Below, piece by piece: positions 3,304 through 64,000 of a DNA stretch of 64,000 nucleotides. Numbering within the stretch: the stretch's first letter is position 1; every line of letters begins with the position of its first letter. The position numbers were made by a program, and so were the translations under genes. The notes under the pieces were generated by a model, which worked only from the letters and a program-made list of their open reading frames with translations, did no database searches and was not told where the DNA came from. Origin of the DNA: Pocillopora verrucosa (lineage: Eukaryota; Cnidaria; Anthozoa; Scleractinia; Pocilloporidae); assembly GCF_036669915.1 (NCBI RefSeq), contig NC_089316.1, positions 14,076,243-14,140,242 on the forward strand, read 5' to 3'.

Positions 3304-4489
3304 CAGAGAGATTGAGAGGAGAAGGATAAAACAAGGAGAACAAGAAAACGAGGAAAAGGAGATAAGGAAAAGAAAGTAATAGAATAGTTGGGTTCTTCCT
3401 TTCCCCATCGGTTTTTTTTTACTTTCCTCTTCCTCTTTCATCCCTCATATCATCCTTCCCATTCTCTCTTTCTCGATTCTTTCCATCTTTCCATTTTCAC
3501 CCGTCCTCCTCTTGCTCCACTCTTTAATCTAAGTAGGGCCCTACCGTCCCCCCCAGGGTGAAGCGGAAGGGCGGATACAACGGGGGGGGGGGGGAGGTTG
3601 GAGGGTACGGCTGCTATCCACTCTTTCAGGAGCCCGTTATCCGGACTCCTCCATCTTCCATACTTACCCTTTAAGTCAACCCTGTCCCGTGCCTTTTTAT
3701 CTTCAGAAGCACCTCCCACGGGGTTTTTCGCGGGCGCTTACATAATGGCCAATCATAAGAGAGCTGTGGTCCTCCATTGTTCACGTCACATGCAGGCCGC
3801 ACGAAAGTATTTCAATAATTGCGAAAAGCGCGGAAAGTTTATCATTTTTTTAGGTTGTTATGCGAACGTCAGCGTGTTTTCGCGGGAAATTAAAGAACCC
3901 CCCACATATCTCAATTCTAAAAATAAAAAGATACGGGACAGGGTTGACTCAAGGGTGAAATTAGTATGGAGGCTCCGGATAATGGGCTCCTGGGTAATGG
4001 GCTCCTGACTCTTTCCATTAATTGTAATTTCTCCGCTTTTAACCTTCTCCCCTCACAAACTTGAATAAAGGGCTGTAAAAAATTAAGGAAGAGAAATAAC
4101 TAAAAGGCGATTTGGTTTACCTTATACTTTTCTTTACAATTTCCCACAATCAAAAAATAACTAACCCTTTAACCCCTATGAGTGATTAACATTTAATTTC
4201 TCGCTACATAATCACTACTGAAGCAAACATTGAGAATACGGGAAATGACCACCCACTCAAGAAACTCATGATTGCTGAACACATTTTAAGTTAGCGCATG
4301 TTTTGACTGTGCCTGCATACAAAGCCCTGCTAAATGGTCCACTGCTGTATCAGAGCCTTTAATCTGAAGACAGAAAAAAGGATGGTGGTTATTTGATCTT
4401 TTTAAGTACATTAAAGCAGTCATGAACTGAGCAGTGTTAGGTGTAAATTGTAAATTAAGAGAGGAAAGGGAAACCTTTCTTATCTCAGC

Positions 4490-4735
4490 GGCCTCCGGCC
4501 AAAAGTGATTTCCTAAAAAGATGCTTCAAACGGCCCATGAAGGCTAACATATATCACAAATGCGTCTATTAATATTTCATTTAACTCTATTGAAATATTC
4601 ACACCGAGATGTAATTTACATATGCAATTTTCAGAGCTTTATTCATAACCCTTATAGATTTTGTTCGTCTCATGTCAGCAATTATTAACCACGAACACAT
4701 AGCGTGGTCTGACTGTGGTTGACAGTTTAGTTGTT
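4490..4735. repeat. interspersed repeat copy, related to the element at 5.17-5.49 kb
   Basis: The segment begins near GGCCTCCGGCCAAAAGTGA, passes through GATGCTTCAAACGG and ends near CGTGGTCTGACTGTGG. Most of it matches 5275-5490 in direct orientation with scattered substitutions. Part matches 43858-44005 in inverted orientation. No reading frame is conserved among the copies. Confidence 0.75.
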
Positions 4736-5170
4736 GATATGTGCGCAAAGGCCAACACACAGGTAGGCGGACACGGTTTTCAGCTCACACATCACGTGGA
4801 AAACTAGTTCCTTTCTCCTACACTTTTTGGTTTTGTTTAGTTCACATAGAACTTTTTATTTTCTAACTCGACGTATCACGTTTCAGTAAACCTATCACAG
4901 ATGATCATATGGCCTTGTTATTTAGGTTTCGACTCTAAAGATCGCAATGATCAGGAAGCAACAGAACAGAGAACTTTATAACGCCTGGCATGAAGTTTGG
5001 CACGTTTCTTTGGTTTACATACTGTACGTGTCAAAACTAAACCACAATTGATATAAACGTAACTGCCAAGAGATGATATTTTAGGTGTATTGGTCAGGAA
5101 CTGGTTAAAAATAATCACAAAGTCTAGCACGTTTCTGTGGTAGGAAAAACTTTACGTGTCTGAATTCATG

Positions 5171-5491
5171 TTTAACCATAGACAGACCACACTATGTGTT
5201 TGGTTGATGATTGTTAACACGAGACGAACAAAATCTATGAGGATGGTGAATAAAAGTACTTTGGTTAAAAGCAATTTCGTAAAAAAAGATGCTTCAAACG
5301 GCACATGTAGCGAAAAAAATACCACTAATAAATTGATTAGTATTTCATTTCACTTTACTGAGATATTCAGTCTGAGATATAATTTAGATATGCAATTTTC
5401 AGAGCTTCATTAATAACCACCATAAATTTTGTTCGTCTCATGTCAACAATAATCAACCGCGAACACATAACGTGGTCTACCCGTGGTTTAA
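5171..5491. repeat. 321-bp MITE with about 70-bp inverted ends
   Basis: The left arm (5171-5242) and right arm (5421-5491) are imperfect reverse complements. Both carry the GAGACGAACAAAAT motif and its complement, and the outermost bases read TTTAACCA and TGGTTTAA. The interior matches the repeat at 4490-4735. No target duplication is obvious. The 85-codon plus-strand frame inside is not conserved in the sister copy and is probably chance. Confidence 0.75.
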
Positions 5492-8400
5492 CAAAAGCAC
5501 AATCAACATCAGGTTCAAAGTTTGTAACGTGAAAATATGCTGCTCTTTTAGTCTTTTACTCGCATCACCAAATTGAAGAAAAACAAACGGAACACGCGAA
5601 GTGTCTATCTTACAACCGTCCTTTAAGAGGCAGCTTTTTCAGCTTAGCTTGTAATTGAGAGAAATTGAAGAGGAGCATCTGATGTCCCACTTGAAATGAA
5701 AAATGATTAACTATGATGGATCAAAATCTGTGGAAACTTCCTCAAACGCATGCGCCGGTATCTTAACTTGTAGAAATACCTAGAGCTATAATTTGGCGTA
5801 TAAATACTAATGTAGAACGAAGGCTACTGCTAACTCAAGACTTGGACCTTCTACAAACTAGTTGTTATAATTTTAATAGGGTCTGATAGTGTTACTCTAC
5901 ACTAAGACTGAAATGCTTGTCAAATATTTAAAAAAGTGAACAAAAGTTTCCACGTTTTGCTGCCTATTTAATCCTCAGCGATTAAATAAACGTGCTGGAC
6001 GTCATCTCGAGCTGTTGTTCGTCAGGTCTGCGACTGGCACATATCAACAAACGTTGAATCTAAACTGTATTCATTTAGGAAATTCACATACGTGACCCGG
6101 ATCGTTTTAAATTTGTGGTTTTGTAAGATCCGGAAATTATCGCGGAACGTGCAACTTAAAGATGTTTCTTATGTAACAGCGGAGAATAAATGAGGAAAAA
6201 TAATGGAAGCATAGAAATTATGTGAAGTTTGAGTGAAAGATTTCAAAGGGAATTTTGCAGAAAGAAATATTTATTTACTCTTTATCGATCGTGCTTGTTA
6301 AAGTGGCAATCCCACGACCCAAGAGGACGACCAGTGGCCTACATCCACTCGTCTTGATTGCATTTGTTTGGACAAGAAGCAGTTTATGACTGCAACCACA
6401 GGATTTTGCTTTCGTGGAAACAAATCAGCTGAAAACCCAAGCGGAAAACTCACGTAAGATGCAATCGCAGCGAAGTATTTGCTTCATCTTGTTCGCTTTA
6501 GACTGAACAAGTACTATACCGAACTCGAACAAGAACTTTCAATACTATTGGAAAAACCCTAGAATGAGAGAGTAAACAAAATAACATTATATCCTTGAAA
6601 CATCAATGCAGCTCTTTAGTTTAGCAGACCTTCCGCCATCAAACCGGAGATTAGAGATGAACCAAATATAAATAAAAGGTTGAAAAATGAAACTATTCAG
6701 CCTCTTTTCCATATGATCGCCTGTATGTTCATCTATATAAGACCCTTGAGTCAGTGATCGTTTGACGTGGTTCAGGGGGCGATTATTTAAAGAGGACGGG
6801 AGGGGGCGAGGTTGAGCGTTCACCTTACAACAAGACTCAACAAAGGACCGTCGATTTTGCATTGTTAGTTCCTGAACATATCATTATTAGACCCAAAGAA
6901 TGAAGGATCAAAATCTTTTTTAGGTTTTTTATGTGACAGCGAGAAGCGTGCTTTTCTGCAACTTCTCAATCTTTGGTTAGGGCAAAGCCGAACGCACAAT
7001 GACATGCTGATAAAAAGTGATAATGAAGCAGGAGCTTTGTTTTCTTCTGTCATTATTTAGATAGTTTGTGTACATCTTCAACTACACGTATGCACACGAT
7101 TTTAACATCAGACCACAATATTTCTTCCTAAAATGCTTAAACTACAGGCCAAAGCAAGAAACAGTGATCGTGACTATAATGTTGTATCCAGTAAAGACCA
7201 TGATGCTGAGGTCTGTCACGTTTTTTTTAAGTCAGACAGACAACAAAGCGTGCTCTACCCCTTGAGCTGATATTGTGTGATAGAGCAGTTTTTTTGAATA
7301 ATAATTACGAGATCAATGGGCTCTCATTCATGTGTGGTGTTAATTTGGCTCTAATGATGATTTCGTTGACAAGCACGTATTCAAACGTATCTCCTGTTGC
7401 GTGAGCCCTATCCTTGAGTTAAATGAATTCTGAAAGTTTAACAAAGCTCGCTTTCTTAGCTTCAAGTGCGATTTAGAGAGAACAATGTATACTCAGGACT
7501 AAAAAAAATATCACCGTTTTCAAGGGTTCTTATCGCCTTGTGTATGAGTGCGGTTTTCCGCAAACACCTCTGTGGTTAAAGTAAAGTTGGTTTTTTTCTC
7601 CTTTACAACCAATCTTTTTTTTTCTTTTTTTTTATGTTTTGCTGGTGAAACTGAAACTGAAAACTCAACATATGATAAAAACAATTTTCCTTCCCTGGCT
7701 TTAACACATGAAAAGCGTGAAAGATCGTCTAGATGGTGGAAATTGAGAATAGACTTCAGCGAGCTCAAGGATTATGAATTTCAATTTCTGTTTTGGATCT
7801 TTTAGTTTGTATGCATCTAAAGTTACTGACGAATACTTTTTCAGTCCAATAAAATTATCCACCAAAAAGAGACCTTTCGAAGAGTGATGTTTCTCTCAAT
7901 GGAATTGCTCAATCTAGGAGCTCATAATGGGCTCCTGGGAATTCTCATTTTCTTTCCTTTACTAGTTTTAAGAAGAGAAGACTTTTAACACCAGCAATTT
8001 TCTATTTTTAAGACAAAAATTAAGCTGATAAATGAATGCATATGTGTAGGCCATGAGCACGAGTTCCACACCCCTACATGTGACTGTCTACGATGAAAAA
8101 GCCGGCCGGCACTTTGTCACGGATAAGTTTTTGCGATTTACAAGCAATCAAAATGCATGGCGACAAAATTATTTCCCAGTCTTATAAGAACATTCTGACT
8201 CGAATTGGTTCGTTTGATCTTTGATCAAGGTGAGAGCTGGAAAACTTTGTAATTACAGTTTTTAGCTGGTGCCGCTGTGTACGTGCCGAGAGTACGTGAC
8301 TGCTGCCAAGTTTAGGTACTATACATAATTATGCGATTTCATCGAAGACAAAAGAAACTCAGACAAAATTGACACCACTAAGAAAAGCACTGTTTGTCTC

Positions 8401-45888: not shown

Positions 45889-47345
45889 AAAACAATAATT
45901 AGATTAAAAAGTTAGTTTTCGGATTAAATTCTTGAACAAAACATTTACTCTATGGTTGGTGTTAAATTCTTGAACAAAACATCTACAAGATAACATAAAA
46001 GTTGTTTTCAAGAGGGTGTGGGTAAAATTAACCCCAATGGTGTTGGCGGCTTTCATGTAAACTTCTAAGGGTTTTGTTTACTTATTAAACACCTGGTTTC
46101 GAAGTGAATTGGTTTAGTGCATATATTTGCAAAAGGTATTGATTAATACCACGTAGGATGTGTTTCAAGTGATTTGTGCATGCAAAAGCTATGGCTGATT
46201 TTGAGTGAACTGCATAGCTTTCAATTTAATTCATAACCACATCCTGATAATTATGATCACATCATGATGATATTTTACATAAATTAACAATAAAATACTG
46301 GGGCTGTCACACACAGAGAAGACCAATTTATTTTCAGATCACAGACTACAACTAAAGCCAGATTATCAGAAATTAATCTATGTTCACAGGGTTCTCCCTA
46401 GTTTTCAGCACAACTGGTAAGGGACCTTTTCAAATAAGTAAAGCACATTTGCAGCTTCAGGTGGCTAGTCATTCTCAACTTTGTCATTCCCTAAAGCATA
46501 CAGTACATCGTGCCCATCAAAAATTCTCTATTGAAAAATTCATAATTCAAAAGACACATCTTTATGTTCAGAGGTTGAACAAAACAAAGTAAAATTTTGT
46601 TAAAAAGCATTATATTTGACTATGCTCTTTCCAACTGCTTACAATGTAAACTGGTCTCTCTTCGATTTTGGGTGGTATCTGAGGTGTCACTTACATGGCA
46701 TATTGCAGTGTCAGCTGCAAATCGCATCATTGTGAAATCGAATCACAATTCGTGTTCTAATCGTCTCAAATTCAGAACTTTTACACTGTCGAGAGATTTT
46801 ATTTTCAAGGCTCCTTTCAAACCATTGTCTGAAACACATTTCAAGTAGAATTTCACGATGAAGACTAGCTTTGTCCCCATGTCCATTACTGGACAGAAAC
46901 GATAGCATTGTTTGCTGCCGTTTCATCATGGAAACTGAACAACTAAACGACGCCACATTTGTACATACAGAGAACTGACAAATGTCATGAGATTTAGCAG
47001 AAAGCCCATGAAAAATCACTCTAACTTGCTTTGAAATTCAAAAGGTACCAGTCGGTGTTAGCTAACTAAAGCACATGTAGATCTATAATAGTGCACACTA
47101 TTGGCTTGTTGTTACACTTTCTTACCAGATTAGCTTACCATAAATACATATTTTTTTAAGGGTTCTGGGCGTTTGCAGGCAGTGATGAGTGCTCTGACTT
47201 ACAAGCAGTAAATTTTACCGGTTGCCACCTGACAAGGAGAACCCTGTGTTCACTGGTTTCATTAAAATTATCTCCAGTGTCTCTCCACTAATTTCCGTGT
47301 AAAACTCAGTGGAATTGGACTTTGATGTCACAGGTCCCTTATACT
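45889..47345 (-). repeat. direct repeat copy 1, split by a DNA transposon
   Basis: Segments 45889-46386 and 47247-47345 together match 50289-50845 in the same orientation. They share AAACAATAATTAGA, TAAATTCTTGAA, GAGGGTG, TGCATGC and TTAGTGGAGA (minus strand). The 860 bp between them is an insertion. In minus sense the right part keeps a short frame with PVTS, then EISGETLEII, then MK, also present in copy 2. The two may be terminal repeats of the Gypsy relic between them, but no clean TG...CA ends are visible. Confidence 0.7.
46387..47246. mobile_element. 860-bp TIR DNA transposon, non-autonomous
   Basis: The ends are CAGGGTTCTCC and its complement, with weaker inverted similarity for about 33 bp (CAACTGGTAA against CAACCGGTAA). 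TGTTCA flanks both sides (46381-46386 and 47247-47252), a 6-7-bp target duplication. Comparison with the uninterrupted copy at 50.75 kb confirms the insertion point. A 102-codon minus-strand frame inside contains MMKRQQTMLSFLSS, which looks like the start of some hAT-type proteins. The element may therefore be an internal-deletion derivative. Superfamily is unassigned. Confidence 0.85.
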
Positions 47346-50288: not shown

Positions 50289-50845
50289 AAACAATAATTA
50301 GACTAAAACGTTAGTATTTGGGTGGTGTTAAATTCTTGAAGGAAACATTTACAAAATAACATAAAAGTTGCTCCCAAGAGGGTGCAAGTAAATTTACCTC
50401 CATTTATGTCGGTGCCTGCATGTAAACTTCCAAGGATTTTGTTTACTTTGTGAACACCTGGTTTCAAGGTGAATCGGTTTAGTACATTTGTTTGCAAAGG
50501 TATCAATTAATACAATGTTAGATGTGTTTCAAGTGATTTATGCATGCGAAAGCTATGGCTGATTTGAAGGGTGAAGAGTGAGCTCCATAGCATTCAATTT
50601 AATTCATAATGGCATCTTGATAACTATGATCACATCATGATAATATTTTAACATAAAATACTTGGACTCTTTGTGACACACTGGGAAGACCAACTCCTTT
50701 TCAAATTATATACTACAACTAAAGCAAGATTATCAGAAATTAAACTATGGTCACTAGTTTCATAGAAATTATCTCCAGTGTTTCTCCACTAATTTCCATG
50801 TAGATCTCGGCTGAATTGGACACTGACGTCACAGGTACTTCTTTC
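50289..50845 (-). repeat. direct repeat copy 2, uninterrupted
   Basis: This is the full-length counterpart of 45889-47345. It carries the empty site (CTATGGTCACTAG) for the 860-bp transposon. In minus sense a short frame has PVTSVSNSAEIYMEISGETL. Several third-position changes relative to copy 1 hint that this stretch was once coding. Confidence 0.7.
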
Positions 50846-52981: not shown

Positions 52982-53300
52982 TTAATCAGAAATTAGTAAG
53001 TCAGTATCACTGTCAAAGTTTTGTGAATCATATTCCGAGTCATAAGGCTGGTCTGTTGGCTTTAAAGCAGCTGCTGCAACTTCAACTTCATGTTCAAGTG
53101 CCATCTCATTTGATGATCATTTCATTGATCCGCTTCAACAGTTTCAACCTGCACTCCCACATCTGCCATCTCTACATACTCTGACACAACCATGGTGATC
53201 TGTTGATACTTCTTTCTTAGGCAAGGTTTGCCTTTTTTTTTTGCTCCAACCAACGCTGTACAGAGTCACCCACAAGTTCCTTGCACTGGTCCGAGTGTAG

Positions 53301-53610
53301 TAGTCCATGAGCCAAGGGGCATAAAAGTTATGCCTCGTAGCAGCCCCCAATGGGACATAGTGAATTTGGTATCAAATTAAAGCTTATGACCTATATTTCT
53401 AGAATCTACTTGTTTTCAAACCGGTAACGTGTGCTGTAATGAGATATTGGGCTGTTTCCATGGGGGGGTGAGGTTAGGAGAATTTGCTTACTATAGACGT
53501 GGTAAGAAGATAAATGGTCACCTCTAACAAACATCAACCAAATTGGTTCAAATTTGCAAGATATAGTTGTTGTATCATAAGCTATCCAAATGTGTTATCG
53601 GACTTAAGGT
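53301..53610. repeat. left terminal inverted repeat of the 5.5-kb element
   Basis: Reverse complement of 58535-58846 with scattered substitutions and small indels. The best-kept blocks are ACATAGTGAATTTGGTATCA and CCAAATGTGTTATCG. Confidence 0.85.
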
Positions 53611-53647
53611 TTTTGCTACCTTCTACCTTCCTACCTTCTTTTGCTAC

Positions 53648-56600
53648 CTATACTTCTACATCAGTGTCCGATGACTTGATTAAGATCTGTTGATGGGCCG
53701 CATCAGAGGCATGCAAGGCATGCAGAAACATTCGGGTATCTGCCTCTTCTTGGTTGCTGCAGAGTTCAAGCACAGTACTGGAGGAAATGCTACCTTGAGC
53801 GTCAACGCTTATCTAGAAGCAACTCTCCCCATGAGTGACAAACAGCGTTCTTTCTCCGATCCTCCTGGCAAAGCGCTGGTCGGTCCCCCACACATCTGCA
53901 AGGAATTCCATGAGGTTGGTCTTGTTCAAACCATTAGCGAGGAACTTTTTCCACTGTCGCGGACAGAGCTGTTGTTCGCCAGTGAGCCATCGTAGGTTGC
54001 CAGAGACCAAGGCACAGGTCCTAGTTCGTGAGTGGGGAGATCTCTCAGGTTGATCTGTAGACTCTGTCCGATGACTAGGAGCCTGAAAAAAAGATTTCTA
54101 TCAGCTCGGAGCACAAAACTCTTCCTCCCTTGATTAACTGTCTTCTTAACCTCTCCGAATTTCCGAACTTCAGCTTTGGTAGTGTCTCAAAGAACCCTAC
54201 TGCACTGCTGGTCAGCCGGTCTTGTACAACTACACTAACTTGTACAACTACACTAACTTGTACAACTACACTAACGCAGACTTTCGTTTCTCTTCTGCTT
54301 TTAGCAGGTCTTCCTTCAAAGCGCTGCTTGCGATGGAACCTGAGCTCAGACTCACGAGATCGTCTGCTGTCTCAAATGGATTCCTCCATTGACTGATCAC
54401 CTCCATGACCTTCTTCACGTCTTCTTCATCCTTTCTCTTGCAAACCGAGCCCGACTCCTTGTGACCCTTTATCTCGTCCTGAGGATGTGAAGAAGGCATC
54501 TCTCTACATCGATCGGCAAAGCTGGCTCTTGCATGAGCAGTTAACATCCACCACTGCACAGCACCCTTCTTAAGGCTTAACCCTATTATGCCACCCTTAG
54601 TTTTCGTGTTACGGTTTAAAGTTTGTTCGATGGTTTGGTCAACTGGAAGCTGCGAGAATCCATGGGAGGTTGTGCGTTGTACACCAAAGTCTCCGTGAGA
54701 CAGCAAGCTGTAAGCTTCGGGGTGCGTATCTGGAGGTTCTAACATGTGAACTAAGTACACTGGTAAATACCGTACGTAATTTGTGTGATCATATGCAAAA
54801 AACCACGGAAGCACAGCTTTAATGCACTCCAGGTGAAGCTCCCAATTCCCCTCTCTCGTGGCCCTGATGAGACACAGCAGAGTAGCTACCATCTCCAAGT
54901 AGGAGTTCCAGAACATCTTCAGGGGACCGTCGTTCTCGTCTTTGCAGTACTGCTCGTAAAGATTAGCTAGCTCTTCAAATTCTGGCAAGGACAGGACGAC
55001 ATTAAAATTTTCAGCATTACATTCCTCTCTGACGAGCTGCAATGCACTTATAAGATGCATGTAACTGGTACGTTTCCCTTGAGTTACAAGCCATCCCTTG
55101 AACTGCTGCTACTGTAGACGATGCAGAGCCTTGAAAACGATCTCAAAAGAAAAACCACTATTTTTACATATACATGCCTTTTAAGTGCGCACGTCCTGTG
55201 TTACAACTGCATATATCTTGGTTTTGTCCGTAAATAAAATAACAAATATATTTACCTTGTGCGTGCGAATAGCACGGTTGTAATGCTTTCCTTGGAGCAC
55301 ATCTGAGACAGAACCAGTGGCAACGATTCCACTTTCAATCAACGTCTTCGAGTCCGGCACCGGAGAACCTCTTGCCAATTGCAGCAAGGAAAGTGCAAAC
55401 CGTATGAAATGTTCCCATCCTAAGAACCACACGCTGAAATTGCTGGGGATTTTGCCATACTATCTCTAAGGCCTGGGCGTATATAGCTCGATCAAACACT
55501 ATGATCATGTCTCTCTGCCCGAGTTGATCTGCCATCTGCAGAGACCTCTGTAATAGTGAATAGACCGTCGGCAACTCTGTGGGGCTTGCTTCGATCACTG
55601 GACAATACCCAACGCAGCTCTCACGAAGACCCCTCCCTTCTATTATCTTAATATTGAACGCTGTCCAGGCTGGTATGACTTGTGGATGCTCTACAGACAG
55701 TGCAAACAATGAATCTTCAAGTGGCTGTCGACACAGTATCCATCCAAAGTCGATTAAGCGAGCTCTCTGTGTGGTTTCTGTTATAGTCTGTATCACTTGG
55801 TTGATGTTGATCCGCACAGCAGCAGGTCCCTGTCGGCGACCGGAATGATAAGGAATAACATCGGTGGCAATGTGTGTGACTGTGCGCTTCTCAGGATGCG
55901 CTTCTTCAACTTGAATGTCTGGTGGTGGAGCACAGGTAAGCGGTATTCGTTGGACAACAACACCATTAGTGCAGTGTGTCATTCCCTTGCCTGTTAGGAA
56001 ACGGATACGAAAGTCTTACATTAAGAACAAAATAGTTCCTGTTTTATAAAATATAAATAGACAATTGTACGTGCGCTATAAATCAATCGTTTACTTTGAA
56101 GTAAAAACAGAGGAACTGAAAAGATGAAGAGATAAGGTAAAGAGATCAAATTAATGCCGATGCAAAAATAATTTGTCCTTCTCTTTAGATACCTGATAAA
56201 GTCTCCTCCTGAAGGTCATTGTTATCCCAACAGAAAACGGCAGAAACACTGGGACTGCATGCGGTCGGCAACAATACACCATTGCGGAGATTTGTTATTT
56301 GCTGCTCAGCAATTGCTGTCTCAAGCTCTTCGATCTGAGAATATGAAAGACCATGACCAAATCTGTTCAAGAGAGTTACCAGTTCGGCACTCCCGGTGAG
56401 GCTTTTGACTGTCATGGGTAATGGCACATGCTTGGGAGTCTTGGTGCGACCCCGGGAAACATAGTGAATTAGATCCTGTCCTAGCGAAAGAATCCAGCAA
56501 TGAACATGATTGGGTAGACTTGTAACCCATTCAGTACTAAATTCGGTATCTGAGGTAAGAATCCAAGCCAGCATATTGTACAACATATCAGGCACTAAAG

Positions 56601-57740
56601 TAGCGTCAGATTGTAACTCGTCAGCCTTTGGTGGCCATGAAAGAACTGGCTTCACGTCCAGAAGAAGGTTTCGCAGTTCTTTTGACGCATGATAAACCTG
56701 ATGTGCAATGTCCTTCCTGGCTCTTGGGTCTTGCTCATCAATCTCCTCCAGTCCAGACTCTAACCCACCATCTGTCATATCTGAATGCGAAACCAAAGAC
56801 TCGACGATTTCTCCCTTCTCGACATTGGCGCTATAAACAAGCTCCGGCTGGCTAGGATCAGAAGGCTTGCGAAAGTCTAATTGTTTTCCAAATGCTCCTC
56901 TCAGTCGTTGCTTGAGCTTTGATGACCTGTAGTCACTGATGTTTAAGCCTTCCTCGTTTAGGTGTGAAACAAATTTTCCAACAAGTTCTGTCATGTTGAG
57001 GATTCTTTTTTTAATAGTAACTTCACTTTGAAGATAATTACACAATTTGCCAAATGCTTTGCTGAAGCCTCGAGATTCTTTATCTTCAGTGGTACAGTTT
57101 TGAGCTTCGAGCTTTGTTAGTGTCTCAAGGCGAACATAATTCTTGTAGCACGATCTGTGGTATTTAATCTCGTGAGCAATACAATCCTGTCCTTTTATCT
57201 GCAGTAGCACACGATTGTCGCCTCTTATCTCAGCTGCTCTGAGGAGGGACGCATTGCCATACTCGCTGATATTCTGGATTAGAGCTTCCCTTGACCTCGC
57301 TCCCTTGCCACGTTTACATCTCTCCACTTGGCGAATGATGCATTTATCAATATCAAGTCTCTGAACGTGAGATCTATGGAAGCGTTTTGCTGGTGGCTCT
57401 TTACTTGGTTCGTCTGCAGCGATTTCTTGATTAGCAGATGCAGGCGCAGTCTTGTTAGCAGTCCCTTCGATCCTAGATATGTTGCCTACATAGTATAACT
57501 CTGGTAACATTGCCTGTGGTACCCTCCTTTGGGTCCCCCTCTCCAGTGGTTCATCATTGTTAGCCAGATGTGGTCATTTCGTCTCAGAGCAGTTCTCAAA
57601 CTTCTCCCAGCTTTTCTCCGTAAACAAGGTTAATTTCCCGCTACTTTCTGCCAAATGACAAAGACACTTTTTCCAGTTGGGCTGCAAGTTCAAACTGGCT
57701 GAACGTTTCCTAGAAGCTGGCTTGATCTCTGTTATCTCTT
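53648..57740 (-). pseudogene. transposon-encoded multidomain protein, uncharacterised family
   Basis: Three exons can be modelled: about 57740-56193, 55990-55256 and 55129-53648. Donor and acceptor phases fit the first junction, where EETLSG joins KGMTHCTNG. The first exon has a Cys-rich N-terminus (NWKKCLCHLAESSGKL, FTEKSWEKFENC) and HEIKYHRSCYKNYV, then FCWDNNDLQEETLSG. The second has IIVFDRAIYAQALEI, RMGTFHTVCTFLAAIG and GKHYNRAIRTHK. The third has FWNSYLEMV, WFFAYDHTNYVRYLPVYL, LRADRNLFFRLLVIGQS and PRQWKKFLANGLNKTNL, ending EEADTRMFLHAL with SSDTDVEV (XPG/PIN-like acidic pattern). TGA at 57574-57576, TAG at 55109-55111, a shift near 55340 and further breaks in the last third disable it. 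I know this family only as repetitive uncharacterised proteins in cnidarians. Confidence 0.7.
54221..54274. repeat. three perfect copies of an 18-bp unit
   Basis: The unit CTTGTACAACTACACTAA repeats head to tail inside the transposon gene. In minus sense each copy introduces a TAG, so its expansion truncated the reading frame after KRKSALV. Confidence 0.95.
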
Positions 57741-58534
57741 ACTCATTAGGCAGTAAAAATTACCGTCATTATCGGCTCAGTACTTACAGATCTTTTTGAA
57801 GCAGCATTCCTATGAAGACAACGTTAACTTCTTGTGTTAGGTTTTGAATAACGAGGAACAGACATTTGGAATGAAAACGTTTGACAATCGTAACTTAATT
57901 AGTGTCCCACAACAAATGCAATTAAAGAAGCAAATCCGTTTTAGCTGATTTGATACTAACAGATCGTCAAGTGAAGTAAAGCCTGTAAAACTGCTTCCTC
58001 TGAAACGACTTTTGCAATAGAAGACTTTTTTCAACTTAAAGTCATTATTTTACATGGTTTGTGGTAAACATTTGCGTTCCAAAAAAGTTAAAAACGTCGT
58101 TTTGTTAGCTATATCTTGAGTTTTGTAATCCAAGATGGCCGATTCTTCTAAATGCAAGCATCATGGGATTAGCAATCGTACTATGCATTGTGGGATACAT
58201 ACCAAAGGATCTCGGGGGAAAGCACATTTCATTAAAATTATAGGCTGGAGAAGTTCTTTCAAACAGAAAAAAATCTCAATGAAATATTAAAAAAAAAAAA
58301 GGAAAAATGAAAATAACCTTAATTAAATAAAGATATTAGGATAAATAAGGATATTACAGAGACATTTTTAAGACATTGATGCATCTTCTGGACGTCTTCA
58401 ATAAGTTAAGAATGTTTTTCAAGAAATCGAACTTGGGTTAAATATATAGAATTTCATTTTGTTTTCGAAAAACCACAAATTTCATAACCAAGCAATATTT
58501 GACTGGTGCCTGTTGCCATGGAAACCAAAACCAC

Positions 58535-58846
58535 AGGTTCGATAACACATTTGGGTAGCTTGATACAACAACTATATCTTGTAGATTTGAACCAATTTGG
58601 TTGATGTTTGTTAGAGGTATGGACCATTTTTCTTCTCACCACGACTATAGTAAGCAAATTCTCCTCACCCCATTCCCTTGGAAACAGCCCAATATCTCAT
58701 TATAGCACACGTTAGTGATTTGAAAACAAGTAGATTTTAAAAATATAGGTCATAAGCTTTAGTTTGATACCAAATTCACTATGTCTCCTGGGGGGTGCTA
58801 CGAAACTCAATTTCTGGGCCTCTTTTGAGATTTGGCTCATGGACTA
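58535..58846. repeat. right terminal inverted repeat of the 5.5-kb element
   Basis: Partner of 53301-53610. The outer end is GGCTCATGGACTA. Confidence 0.85.
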
Positions 58847-60139
58847 TAGTGGTGGCCCATTGATTGAAACCTGCATAAGTGCTTGCAGCATGTCATTTTT
58901 GAAGCCTTGATTGAAGCCTGGTTTTATTGCACTTAAGAGCGCTTGCACCACGTTCTGGCCATGCACTTGAAATGAGAATTGAAAGGCAACACTCATAAAG
59001 GTTACTCAATAGAGGATAAAAATGCCTGTAGGATGACTGTTTCAACGTATGATGAAGTGTCCATGTTGTGGTAGTCACAGTTGGACATTTACCATCTACA
59101 ACATCTTTAGGAATGACTTTCTTCCACTCAATCTTTCCCCATTCTGCCTGAAACTGTTGCTTCTTCACTTCATAATTAAGATTGGACTCATCGTAGAATT
59201 GTTTAGCAAGTGTTTCGATGTCTTTGAGCCCATACTTCTTGAAGTTCACACTTTCAGGAGGTGGAACCATCATAACATCAAAAACTGCAAATGCGCTAAG
59301 GACTGGCTGGGCACTGCTAAAACGCTGATCAATGTTAGCCCTCAACGGAGAGACGTATCGAAGCAGAAGCTGTTCTTGTTGCTGGAATTGAAATTCTGTG
59401 GATGCAAGCTCTAGGGTTGCTAGCCTTCCCTTCGCTTCCAAATCCTACATGAACTGTTTCAGTGGCAACCTTTCATCTATGATGACTTGTAGCTTGTGTC
59501 TAGCGTGATTAACTGCAGGGGAAATGTGACTGAAGTTTACACATCCTGATTGGAATGTTTTGCTAAGCTGAGAGAGGAAAGGAAGAATGTGCTTGAGAAT
59601 ATGCACACGTCCAACGAATTTGGGACGGTGTATTTCCTTCAGTAGCCCACAAGCTGTTGCATCACTTTCAAGCAGTCATAACGTGCGCATTAATGCTTCT
59701 GAGTCGTCAAATATGGCTTCTACTGCATGATCAAGAGACAACCATCTAGTTTGACAGGCTTTCTTCAGCTTCTTGGTTATAACGTTTCTGCTTTTCTTTG
59801 ACAAGTCAAAAGATTTACTTCTTCTTGCACTTTCAAGTAAATAGCCTTTTTTTTAGGGAAATTTTCCAAATACTTCCACAACTGTCTAAGGAGGTCCTCG
59901 ACAGTTCCTATGTACTCAACATCTTTTGCAGTATCGACACAAGCCAGCGCTAACTTTTGGCAGATGCAGTGGATTGAAATAATTCCGGAATTGACTTCTT
60001 TGAGTCGGGCTGCAAGCCCTTTTCTGGAACCTAACATAACACTTGCACCATCACTAACCAGGGAAGAAACTTTGTCGATTTCCATTTTCAACTCTGTCAT
60101 CTTTGGTATTTGGTAACTTTTTTTCCTCGATTTCAACAT

Positions 60140-60505: not shown

Positions 60506-61014
60506 TTAGTCAAACTCAGGGTCAGAATAAAAGTCATTGTCAGCACATTCACTATCTTCCTGAGATAGACCCAATGCCAATACAACATGACTTTCATCAG
60601 AAATGGATTGTTCCACAGTAACAGTCTCTGTCTCACAAGCTTTCGTCTGACAAGCTGAATCAACTGAATATGGAACTGCCACAAAAGCTGTTGATTCTGT
60701 TTCAACAGGAACTTTAGGAGGGAGGTTCCTTCTGTTTTTCTTCTTATTCCACAGAAGAACAGCTGATTCAATCAATTCATTACATTCAGGAGAATAAAGG
60801 TCTGGGCCACTGATTAGCATCAAAGTATTAAGCATGTCAACCTTTATTCGACTTCTGAGCCCTGCCTTCAACCTCTCTAGACAGCTCGCCTCTCTCTCTG
60901 GCCAGACACTTGACATTGGCAGAGAGCTTGCAATATCTGTTATCTGTGGCAGTAATTCAAACTGAAGTCCTTGTTTCAAGATAATCAGCCTTTGCATACA
61001 CCACTCTGTTGACG

Positions 61015-61615
61015 GTATCCGCCGCTTTCGCCCCCTATCGAGTTCGCCCCTACTTTATACCGTGTTCGCCCCCACACTTTTCGAGTTCGCCCCCATCAAG
61101 TCGAGTTCGCCCCTTGATTGAGTGATATCCAGATGGGTTGATTCGTAAGTTGATGAGTAAATTCTTCAGTCTTAATTTCATAAATAAAGGTAAACGGGTA
61201 CAAGGCTAACAACTTAAGCAATGCTGTCGCGATGAAAGCGTGGTTTGCATCTTCTCAAGTCTGGTTGTTACGATCAACACATTTCGTGTTCGTTAGATAA
61301 ACCGTGTGGTTCTCTTTATCACAAGTTCTGTGTATACAGTTATTTCTGGTAACCCCAGATCCCACGCAGAGTATTTAGTTGATTCCGTCAACCCAGTTCC
61401 CAAGCAGGTTCCACGCAATTGCCGAAATTCAAAATGATCGTCGCTGACGTGACATTTGGCACATTCTGCTAGTGCCTTCGTCATAAATCAACTCATCTGG
61501 ATATCATTCAATCAAGGGGCGAACTCGACTTGATGGGGTCGAACTCGAAAAGTGTGGGGGCGAACACGGCATAAGGTAGGGGCGAACTCGATAGGGGGCG
61601 AACGCGGTGCAATTC
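61015..61615. mobile_element. 601-bp foldback transposon with GTTCGCCCC-repeat arms
   Basis: Inverted arms of about 130 bp (61015-61142 and 61486-61615) each carry five spaced copies of a TTCGCCCC block (one variant TTCGACCC), often as GAGTTCGCCCC. CTGTTGACG flanks both sides (61006-61014 and 61616-61624), an 8-9-bp target duplication. Removing the element plus one flank restores an open hAT frame. The 340-bp interior has no coding frame. Confidence 0.88.
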
Positions 61616-62873: not shown

Positions 62874-63120
62874 ATAGTGAATGAAAGTGATCCTCGCAGT
62901 AATGTGCACTACTTAGGTAGTAGTGAAAATAAGACCTGAAAAAAATTCAGGCCTGTACGGGATTTGAACCCATGACCTCTGCGATACCAGTGCAGCGCTC
63001 TACCAACTGAGCTAACAAGCCAACTGGGAGCTGGTCATGATGTTGGTTCTAAATAAACCCGCGAAGTGATGAATAAACGGTTAAGAATATATGAAAGTCA
63101 TATATTTGAACTGCGGATAA
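62874..63120 (-). repeat. tRNA-derived SINE copy
   Basis: A tRNA-like head (62949-63021, minus strand) with recognisable A and B boxes is flanked by non-tRNA DNA. The flank downstream on the minus strand (from GAAAGTGATCCTCGCAG in plus sense) recurs at 63125 and inverted at 63225-63331. The repeated, flanked structure marks a SINE and not an isolated gene. Confidence 0.65.
62949..63021 (-). tRNA. tRNA-like sequence, SINE head, anticodon GGT by position
   Basis: It folds as a cloverleaf: acceptor GGCTTGT with ACAGGCC (one G-T pair), D arm GCTC/GAGC, anticodon stem CTGCA/CGCAG with one A-C mismatch, seven-base loop CTGGTAT, T arm ATGGG/CCCGT with loop TTCAAAT. GGT would read Thr ACC, but eukaryotes normally use AGT for this box. 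That, the stem mismatch and the repeat setting argue for a SINE-borne pseudo-tRNA with internal Pol III promoter boxes. Confidence 0.4.
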
Positions 63121-63331
63121 AGACGTGAATGAAAGTGATCCTCGCAGTAATGTGCACTACTTAGGCGGTAGTGAAAATAAGGCCTGAAAAAATTCAGGCC
63201 TGTACGGGATTTGAACCCATGACCAGGCCTTATTTTCACTACTGCCTAAGTAGTGCACATTACTGCGAGGATCACTTTCATTCACGTCTTTATCCGCAGT
63301 TCAAATATTTGACTTTCACATATTCTTAACC
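63079..63331. repeat. 107-bp-arm palindrome built from SINE flank
   Basis: Arms 63079-63185 and 63225-63331 are reverse complements with only a few mismatches. They are separated by 39 bp that includes the 3' quarter of the tRNA-like sequence. In DNA this could extrude a cruciform; in RNA it would form a long hairpin. Confidence 0.9.
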
Positions 63332-64000
63332 CTGTATAGATAGTGTTTGCATCACCAGAGCTGGAGGCCTTGAGGAGGTCTTCAACAAAAAGGAAATTTG
63401 TTTTCACTTCCCCATCATGAACATACTGTATGAAAGTTACTAACAATTCCAAAACCTGAAATATCAGTTACTTCATCCATTTTCCTGGAATTCTCTGGCC
63501 GTAAGAGAAAGTATCCAAGAGAAGTCTCGAGGTGGATTTTGTACGTTTGATAAACACAACTGAGATTAGAAGGTCTTCGCAGGTTCGCGAGTGAAGGTTA
63601 AGAGAACTGACAACGCTTCGGTTTTACGAAATTATTGGGAGTGTATTTCCGGACACGTTTACATACTTCTGTAGTCAAAGCTTAGATTACACGATTGCAT
63701 AATGTGAGTCCCAGTCCCCGACGCCATTAAAATGCAAGACCATCCAGCTTGAGTTGCTTGTGTTGCTTGTTTTATGATTGTATCTTGGATTACTTCACCA
63801 ATTGTTAGAAAAATATCACGAAGTGTTTCCTCACCTTGCATGAAAAATATTTCATATGCTCTACTCCAGATGTTTCAAGAAGTTTAAGAAGGGACAACAG
63901 TTTGGAGTTGGCCACTTCATGTTTTGCCAGCCAGTATGCAGACATAAAAGCAGAGAACATAGTCTTGTCTCCCTTAGCAGGTTTATCTGAGAGTTCCCTA

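Follow-up and report, generated by a model that had tools for sequence, protein, structure and literature searches.

We describe here a transposable element in the genome of Pocillopora verrucosa, located at positions 53301–58846 of a 64,000-nucleotide stretch of contig NC_089316.1 (assembly GCF_036669915.1, positions 14,076,243–14,140,242, forward strand); we refer to this whole stretch as “the window”. The element is a genuine DNA transposon that makes 3-bp target-site duplications (TSDs). It very probably belongs to the Academ type, with AcademX as its nearest lineage, and inserted in a pre-existing hAT transposase gene. Below, we first present the evidence for its ends and duplications, then turn to the protein it carries, its family, and the state of the copy in the window. 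Feature coordinates are collected in Table 1.

An initial annotation of the window had claimed a 5.5-kb element with matching ends at this position, and the interval, at 5546 bp, does have such ends: TAGTCCATGAGCC starts at 53301, and GGCTCATGGACTA finishes at 58846. The terminal inverted repeats (TIRs), annotated as ~310 bp, measure 313 and 320 bp. In their alignment, 276 positions are identical and 28 mismatched, with gaps in addition; the local score is 408, whereas 200 base shuffles gave at most 30. The element is flanked on both sides by TAG, in agreement with the annotated 3-bp target duplication, and when the insert and one TAG are deleted, the interrupted hAT frame rejoins as described, reading SINGPPLHSDQCKELVGDSVQRWLEQKKK on the minus strand. 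The initial annotation took this rejoined frame to fix the ends to the base. The ends are indeed exact, but the frame alone is insufficient proof, because a 3-bp duplication leaves the hAT frame open whether zero, one or both TAGs are kept. Two other observations establish the boundary. First, a sister hAT copy in the window aligns ungapped through the insertion point (GPDLYSPECNELIE and GPPLHSDQCKELVG). Second, similarity to five other loci in the genome stops at the ends, extending ≤5 bp beyond 53301 and ≤2 bp beyond 58846; similarity running past either position in other copies had been named in the annotation as evidence against the element. The 500-bp flanks, searched alone against these five loci, matched none of them (0/5).

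The genome searched was the window's own (353 Mb, 52 contigs), and all match counts are lower bounds. With the left end as query, at least 12 matches were found, representing the window copy and the five other loci. One of these, L009 (locus labels are ours), has both ends, while L010 and L011 have one end each. L012 and L013, both with two ends, represent a sister subfamily. Few close copies of the element were found. With ≤1 mismatch allowed, the two strands together contain 27 occurrences of the terminal 15-mer, compared with 8 for a reversed control.

Elements were also sought through their protein. Queries with the nuclease region of L012 and with a 280-aa open reading frame (ORF) of the window gave 67 and 37 genome matches, respectively, some loci contributing more than one. 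Of these matches, 50 in the first set and 26 in the second fall outside the loci that were fetched. Nine further loci were taken on this basis (L020–L028), mainly those with long open frames. The initial annotation had regarded copies of the protein never associated with the inverted repeats as evidence against its reading. Six of the nine loci are bounded by inverted repeats ending in TAGTC or TGGTC, whereas L028 has the protein and no recognised ends were found there; parts of L022 and L026 are masked. In L020, L021, L023 and L027, the DDE-like part lies inside the repeats, and the protein is ~33–37% identical to that of the window. In L024 and L025, the repeats enclose only the nuclease and Cys-rich part. 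Ends in L020–L027 were placed via the terminal motif beside the repeats, meaning that the shared motif is not independent evidence in these loci; the duplications, by contrast, stay independent.

We took a census of target duplications in ten elements, selected for having both ends placed; TIRs are present in all ten. Perfect 3-bp TSDs flank eight of them: the window element and L021 (TAG/TAG), L009 (GTA/GTA), L012 (ATT/ATT), L020 (ATA/ATA), L023 (TTT/TTT), L024 (TAC/TAC) and L025 (TAT/TAT). A genome search with the left end, along the lines suggested in the initial annotation, recovered two further copies with perfect 3-bp duplications (L009 and L012), and five of the six protein-selected loci bounded by repeats have them as well. 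Matching flanks at 4 to 8 bp were seen in 0/10 elements. Control 3-mers, shifted 1–11 bases outward, matched in 0 or 1 of the ten, and a composition-based binomial estimate for the duplications is about 5e-13. Each of the 20 ends has the sequence TAGTC, TGGTC or TAGTT. L020/L021 and L024/L025/L027 are related elements; their insertions are nevertheless separate, because they are in different places with different flanks. With ten two-ended elements, some only ~33–37% identical in protein, and perfect 3-bp TSDs in 8/10, the protein travels with such ends in most of the loci looked at.

The architecture of the protein is seen in a relative, L029, which was the one locus found in a genome contig scan with the nuclease alignment. 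The contig is labelled as a Planctomycetota metagenome-assembled genome and is probably a eukaryotic contaminant. L029 is a single uninterrupted frame of 1466 aa that is open at the first base of the contig; therefore, its N-terminus may be cut. A Cys/His N-terminal region is followed by D341, D552 and E799, an XPG/EXO1-like nuclease region, and a Cys-rich tail. The three acidic residues are in DDE order, with spacings of 210 and 246 residues. They are conserved: among sequences with a residue at the position, the first is Asp in 5/5 (4 of 9 rows are gapped), the second Asp in 8/8, and the third Glu in 8/8, although L020, L021 and L022 closely resemble one another and are not independent rows in these counts. 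The initial annotation had proposed that the carried protein is the transposase of the element. Both its recurrence between such ends and its three acidic residues in DDE order support this, and the core may adopt an RNase H fold and act by cut-and-paste chemistry.

The nuclease of AcademX is XPG-like. When a profile of the nuclease region of the present proteins (A6, 11 rows) was compared with 177,635 PDB sequences, four Exonuclease 1 sequences ranked first, aligned at the H3TH motif plus a weak collinear stretch toward the N side. PDB searches with single proteins, scans of viral contigs, and a first genome contig scan yielded nothing useful.

Several results weigh against the assignment to AcademX. 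The EXO1 match of A6 is marginal (E 0.023–0.038; best stretch 0.11–0.13), under the usual thresholds. With a 10-row profile, EXO1 ranks third to sixth (E 0.10–0.13), and with a 3-row profile it is absent from the PDB matches. Comparison with human FEN1 by hhalign was not significant (probabilities 0.45 and 1.9 out of 100), and Pfam XPG models had no match in the element's proteins. AlphaFold models built from 4 and 2 sequences had mean pLDDT values of 34.7 and 36.3; both were uninformative about an RNase H or XPG fold and were not used. Two of the ten census elements have imperfect TSDs, L013 (CTT/TAT, with the left end placed assuming TG for TA) and L027 (CTA/TTA). Lastly, L028 has the protein with no recognised ends. 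Pfam transposase models gave no match to the ORFs of the element or to the relatives tested, in searches that took matches at E up to 1 (hmmscan drops most above 0.1).

The features that favour AcademX are the duplications and the nuclease-like region. In PMC10045372, AcademX is described as having TSDs of 3 or 4 bp and AcademH, a member of the same superfamily, TSDs of 9 or 10 bp, a difference seemingly related to the encoded nuclease and helicase. The 3-bp TSDs and nuclease-like region seen here fit AcademX as so described, in support of the “Academ-like” label of the initial annotation. The features of AcademH were not encountered, with 0/10 elements having TSDs >3 bp and no Pfam helicase in the proteins tested. 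Elements with the DDE-like part are 5.0–7.6 kb long, around the mean of 5565 bp that PMC10294476 gives for curated bivalve Academ elements. This likeness was judged from the published description, not from Academ sequences. Membership in Academ therefore rests on architecture, given a comparison by description, a marginal EXO1 match, and uninformative models.

An alternative is that the elements make up an undescribed superfamily of their own, similar to AcademX in its DDE-like core, XPG-like nuclease and 3-bp duplications, yet lying outside it. In its favour, Academ was compared by description only, and the proteins have no Pfam transposase match. We nevertheless consider it unlikely, since a nuclease together with 3–4 bp TSDs is what PMC10045372 ascribes to AcademX, and two lineages sharing the same unusual combination would be less simple than one.

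Membership in Harbinger, Zator, KDZ or another known superfamily is very unlikely. A protein this large that includes a nuclease-like part is, to our knowledge, out of keeping with Harbinger, Zator or KDZ. KDZ and hAT elements make 8-bp duplications, a length found in 0/10 elements. The profile check suggested in the initial annotation gave no Pfam match to Harbinger or KDZ: at E up to 1, there was neither a Harbinger-type DDE domain nor a KDZ transposase, and Zator was rejected on the lack of any Pfam transposase match and on the TSD census. TSD length does overlap with two of these groups, as Harbinger and its relatives make none or 1–4 bp and Zator 3 bp, according to PMC10045372. Finally, the idea of a host gene or passenger protein trapped between unrelated inverted repeats, which L028 and the many nuclease matches outside the fetched loci could suggest, is scarcely credible when most protein-selected loci have repeats with the terminal motif and all but one of those have perfect 3-bp TSDs.

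If the element is indeed an Academ-type transposon, its movement can be pictured as follows. A single long protein would combine the Cys/His N-terminal region, the DDE-like core, the C-terminal XPG/EXO1-like nuclease region, and the Cys-rich tail. It would serve as the transposase, binding to the long inverted repeats and cutting at the TAGTC termini. A 3-bp stagger between the target cuts to which these ends are joined would then create the 3-bp duplication. The nuclease, if active, would probably process DNA ends in excision or repair.

The copy in the window is decayed. The initial annotation described it as “intact-ended”, which holds for the ends; the interior has deletions of ~1.2 kb and 290 bp, as well as frameshifts and stops. 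The comparison is with L009, which is 90.5% identical over 5080 aligned bases and itself contains gaps. In this alignment, positions 305 and 347 of the element correspond to L009 positions 1690 and 2902, a gap of 1191 bp. The 290-bp deletion, also relative to L009, is near 53975. The gene is frameshifted near 55340, is stopped by in-frame TAG codons at 55109–55111 and 53813–53815, and undergoes further changes of frame between 54266 and 53986. Judged from this damage, the copy in the window is old and non-autonomous, a remnant from which the full protein could not be made; any movement in its present state would therefore have been mobilised in trans. An 18-bp unit is repeated three times at 54222–54275, within the decayed coding region.

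Table 1. Features of the element and of the surrounding hAT genes (window positions)
Feature	Position	Strand	Remarks
Whole element	53301..58846	coding strand (-)	5546 bp; nested in decayed hAT gene; based on TIRs, TSD, empty-site frame, and stop of similarity in five other loci
Left TSD	53298..53300	.	TAG
Right TSD	58847..58849	.	TAG
Left TIR	53301..53613	(+)	3' side of gene; 276/304 aligned bases identical to right TIR
Right TIR	58527..58846	(-)	5' side of gene
First long coding piece	56193..57573	(-)	Cys/His motif CIAHEIKYHRSCYKNY and first conserved Asp; ORF 56185-57573; end predicted from GT..AG intron; upstream limit merely the open-frame edge
Candidate catalytic D1	56224..56226	(-)	WDNND
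Predicted GT-AG intron	55991..56192	(-)	202 bp; would join EETLSG/KGMTH, versus EETLSGKGTTH in L029
Second coding piece	55335..55990	(-)	second conserved Asp; frameshift near its end
Candidate catalytic D2	55491..55493	(-)	VFDRAIY
Predicted GT-AG intron	55142..55255	(-)	114 bp; would join IRTHK/IVFKALHRL, versus TRIFKIVYEALHRL in L029
Third coding piece	54266..55108	(-)	conserved Glu; preceded by in-frame TAG stop
Candidate catalytic E	54626..54628	(-)	DQTIEQTLN
XPG/PIN-like nuclease region, remnant	53651..53986	(-)	cut short; RQWKKFLANG, FVTHGESCF, stop, NQEEADTRMFLHA, SSDTDV
Deletion junction	53605..53647	.	~1.2 kb of L009 missing (remaining nuclease region and Cys-rich tail)
hAT transposase, C-terminal part	58850..59444	(-)	ahead of insertion point in reading direction; Dimer_Tnp_hAT E=0.0007
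hAT continuation past insertion point	53150..53300	(-)	HSDQCKELVGDSVQRWLEQKKK, then decayed
Sister hAT copy	60506..61054	(-)	uninterrupted at equivalent site; natural empty-site comparison

The hAT superfamily also consists of DNA transposons, but in the window it is the target of the insertion, not a relative of the element. The Dimer_Tnp_hAT match belongs only to the flanking gene, and it is weak (19.8 bits, under the Pfam cut-off of 21.4). Between 53000 and 62066, two hAT copies are seemingly arranged in tandem on the minus strand, with the Academ-like element splitting one and a small element apparently splitting the other. The latter, at 61022–61607 (586 bp) within the sister hAT region, has 122-bp inverted repeats that are 95% identical and is probably a second nested element. 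Elsewhere in the window, 45945–46387 and 50311–50754 form a direct repeat (80% identity, 456 aligned bases), and 63073–63337 is near-palindromic (88% identity with its reverse complement).

Some candidate loci were not accepted as members of the family. C12:15831491 (L014) and the C1:29115946–29125780 pair (L016/L017) match only the terminal 15-mer (≤1 mismatch), with no element DNA or protein, and L015 has just a 35-bp match to the right end. L016/L017 lie in a ~9.8-kb locus (C1:29115600–29126300) with ~3.5-kb inverted repeats (84%), whose outer ends, AAGTCCATGAGCCAA, are one mismatch from the family terminus. A “2320-aa open frame” at C2:9463449 proved to be a product of masked N in L026, which has no long frame of its own there. 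In both L021 and L022, two long open frames (753/847 and 763/918 aa) are separated by the same break in frame, which may be older than the spread of these copies. In L012, the interior at 4184–7305 contains other repeat-derived frames, some of which look like reverse transcriptase pieces, and inverted arms of 795 bp that are 99.7% identical.

One Pfam family does connect with the core of the protein. L027 matches DUF6589 (PF20231) over residues 521–801 with 30.6 bits, compared with a curated cut-off of 27, and is the only sequence above the cut-off among those scanned. Weaker matches, below the cut-off, occur in L029 (16.8 bits), the window ORF at 54266–55108 (16.2 bits) and L023 (15.2 bits); the Pfam scan did not find DUF6589 in L020, L021, L022 or L028. 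Pfam gives no function for this domain. The literature collection searched contained no paper on DUF6589 and none joining “Academ” and “XPG”, which implies nothing about work outside the collection. A bolder proposal, to which we give a small but real chance, is that these elements constitute a distinct lineage, defined by TAGTC termini, a strict 3-bp TSD, and one protein in which a DDE core (DUF6589) is joined to a flap nuclease of the XPG/EXO1 type and to a Cys-rich tail; DUF6589 proteins everywhere would then be transposases or their domesticated descendants.

The element described here provides base-exact ends and TSDs, together with an almost complete protein architecture, for a transposon group with no named Pfam transposase match. 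The link to DUF6589, though a side link to the transposon core, offers a mobile-element meaning for that family. In practice, TAGTC ends, long inverted repeats and a 3-bp TSD could together be used by annotators to purge such genes from host gene sets.

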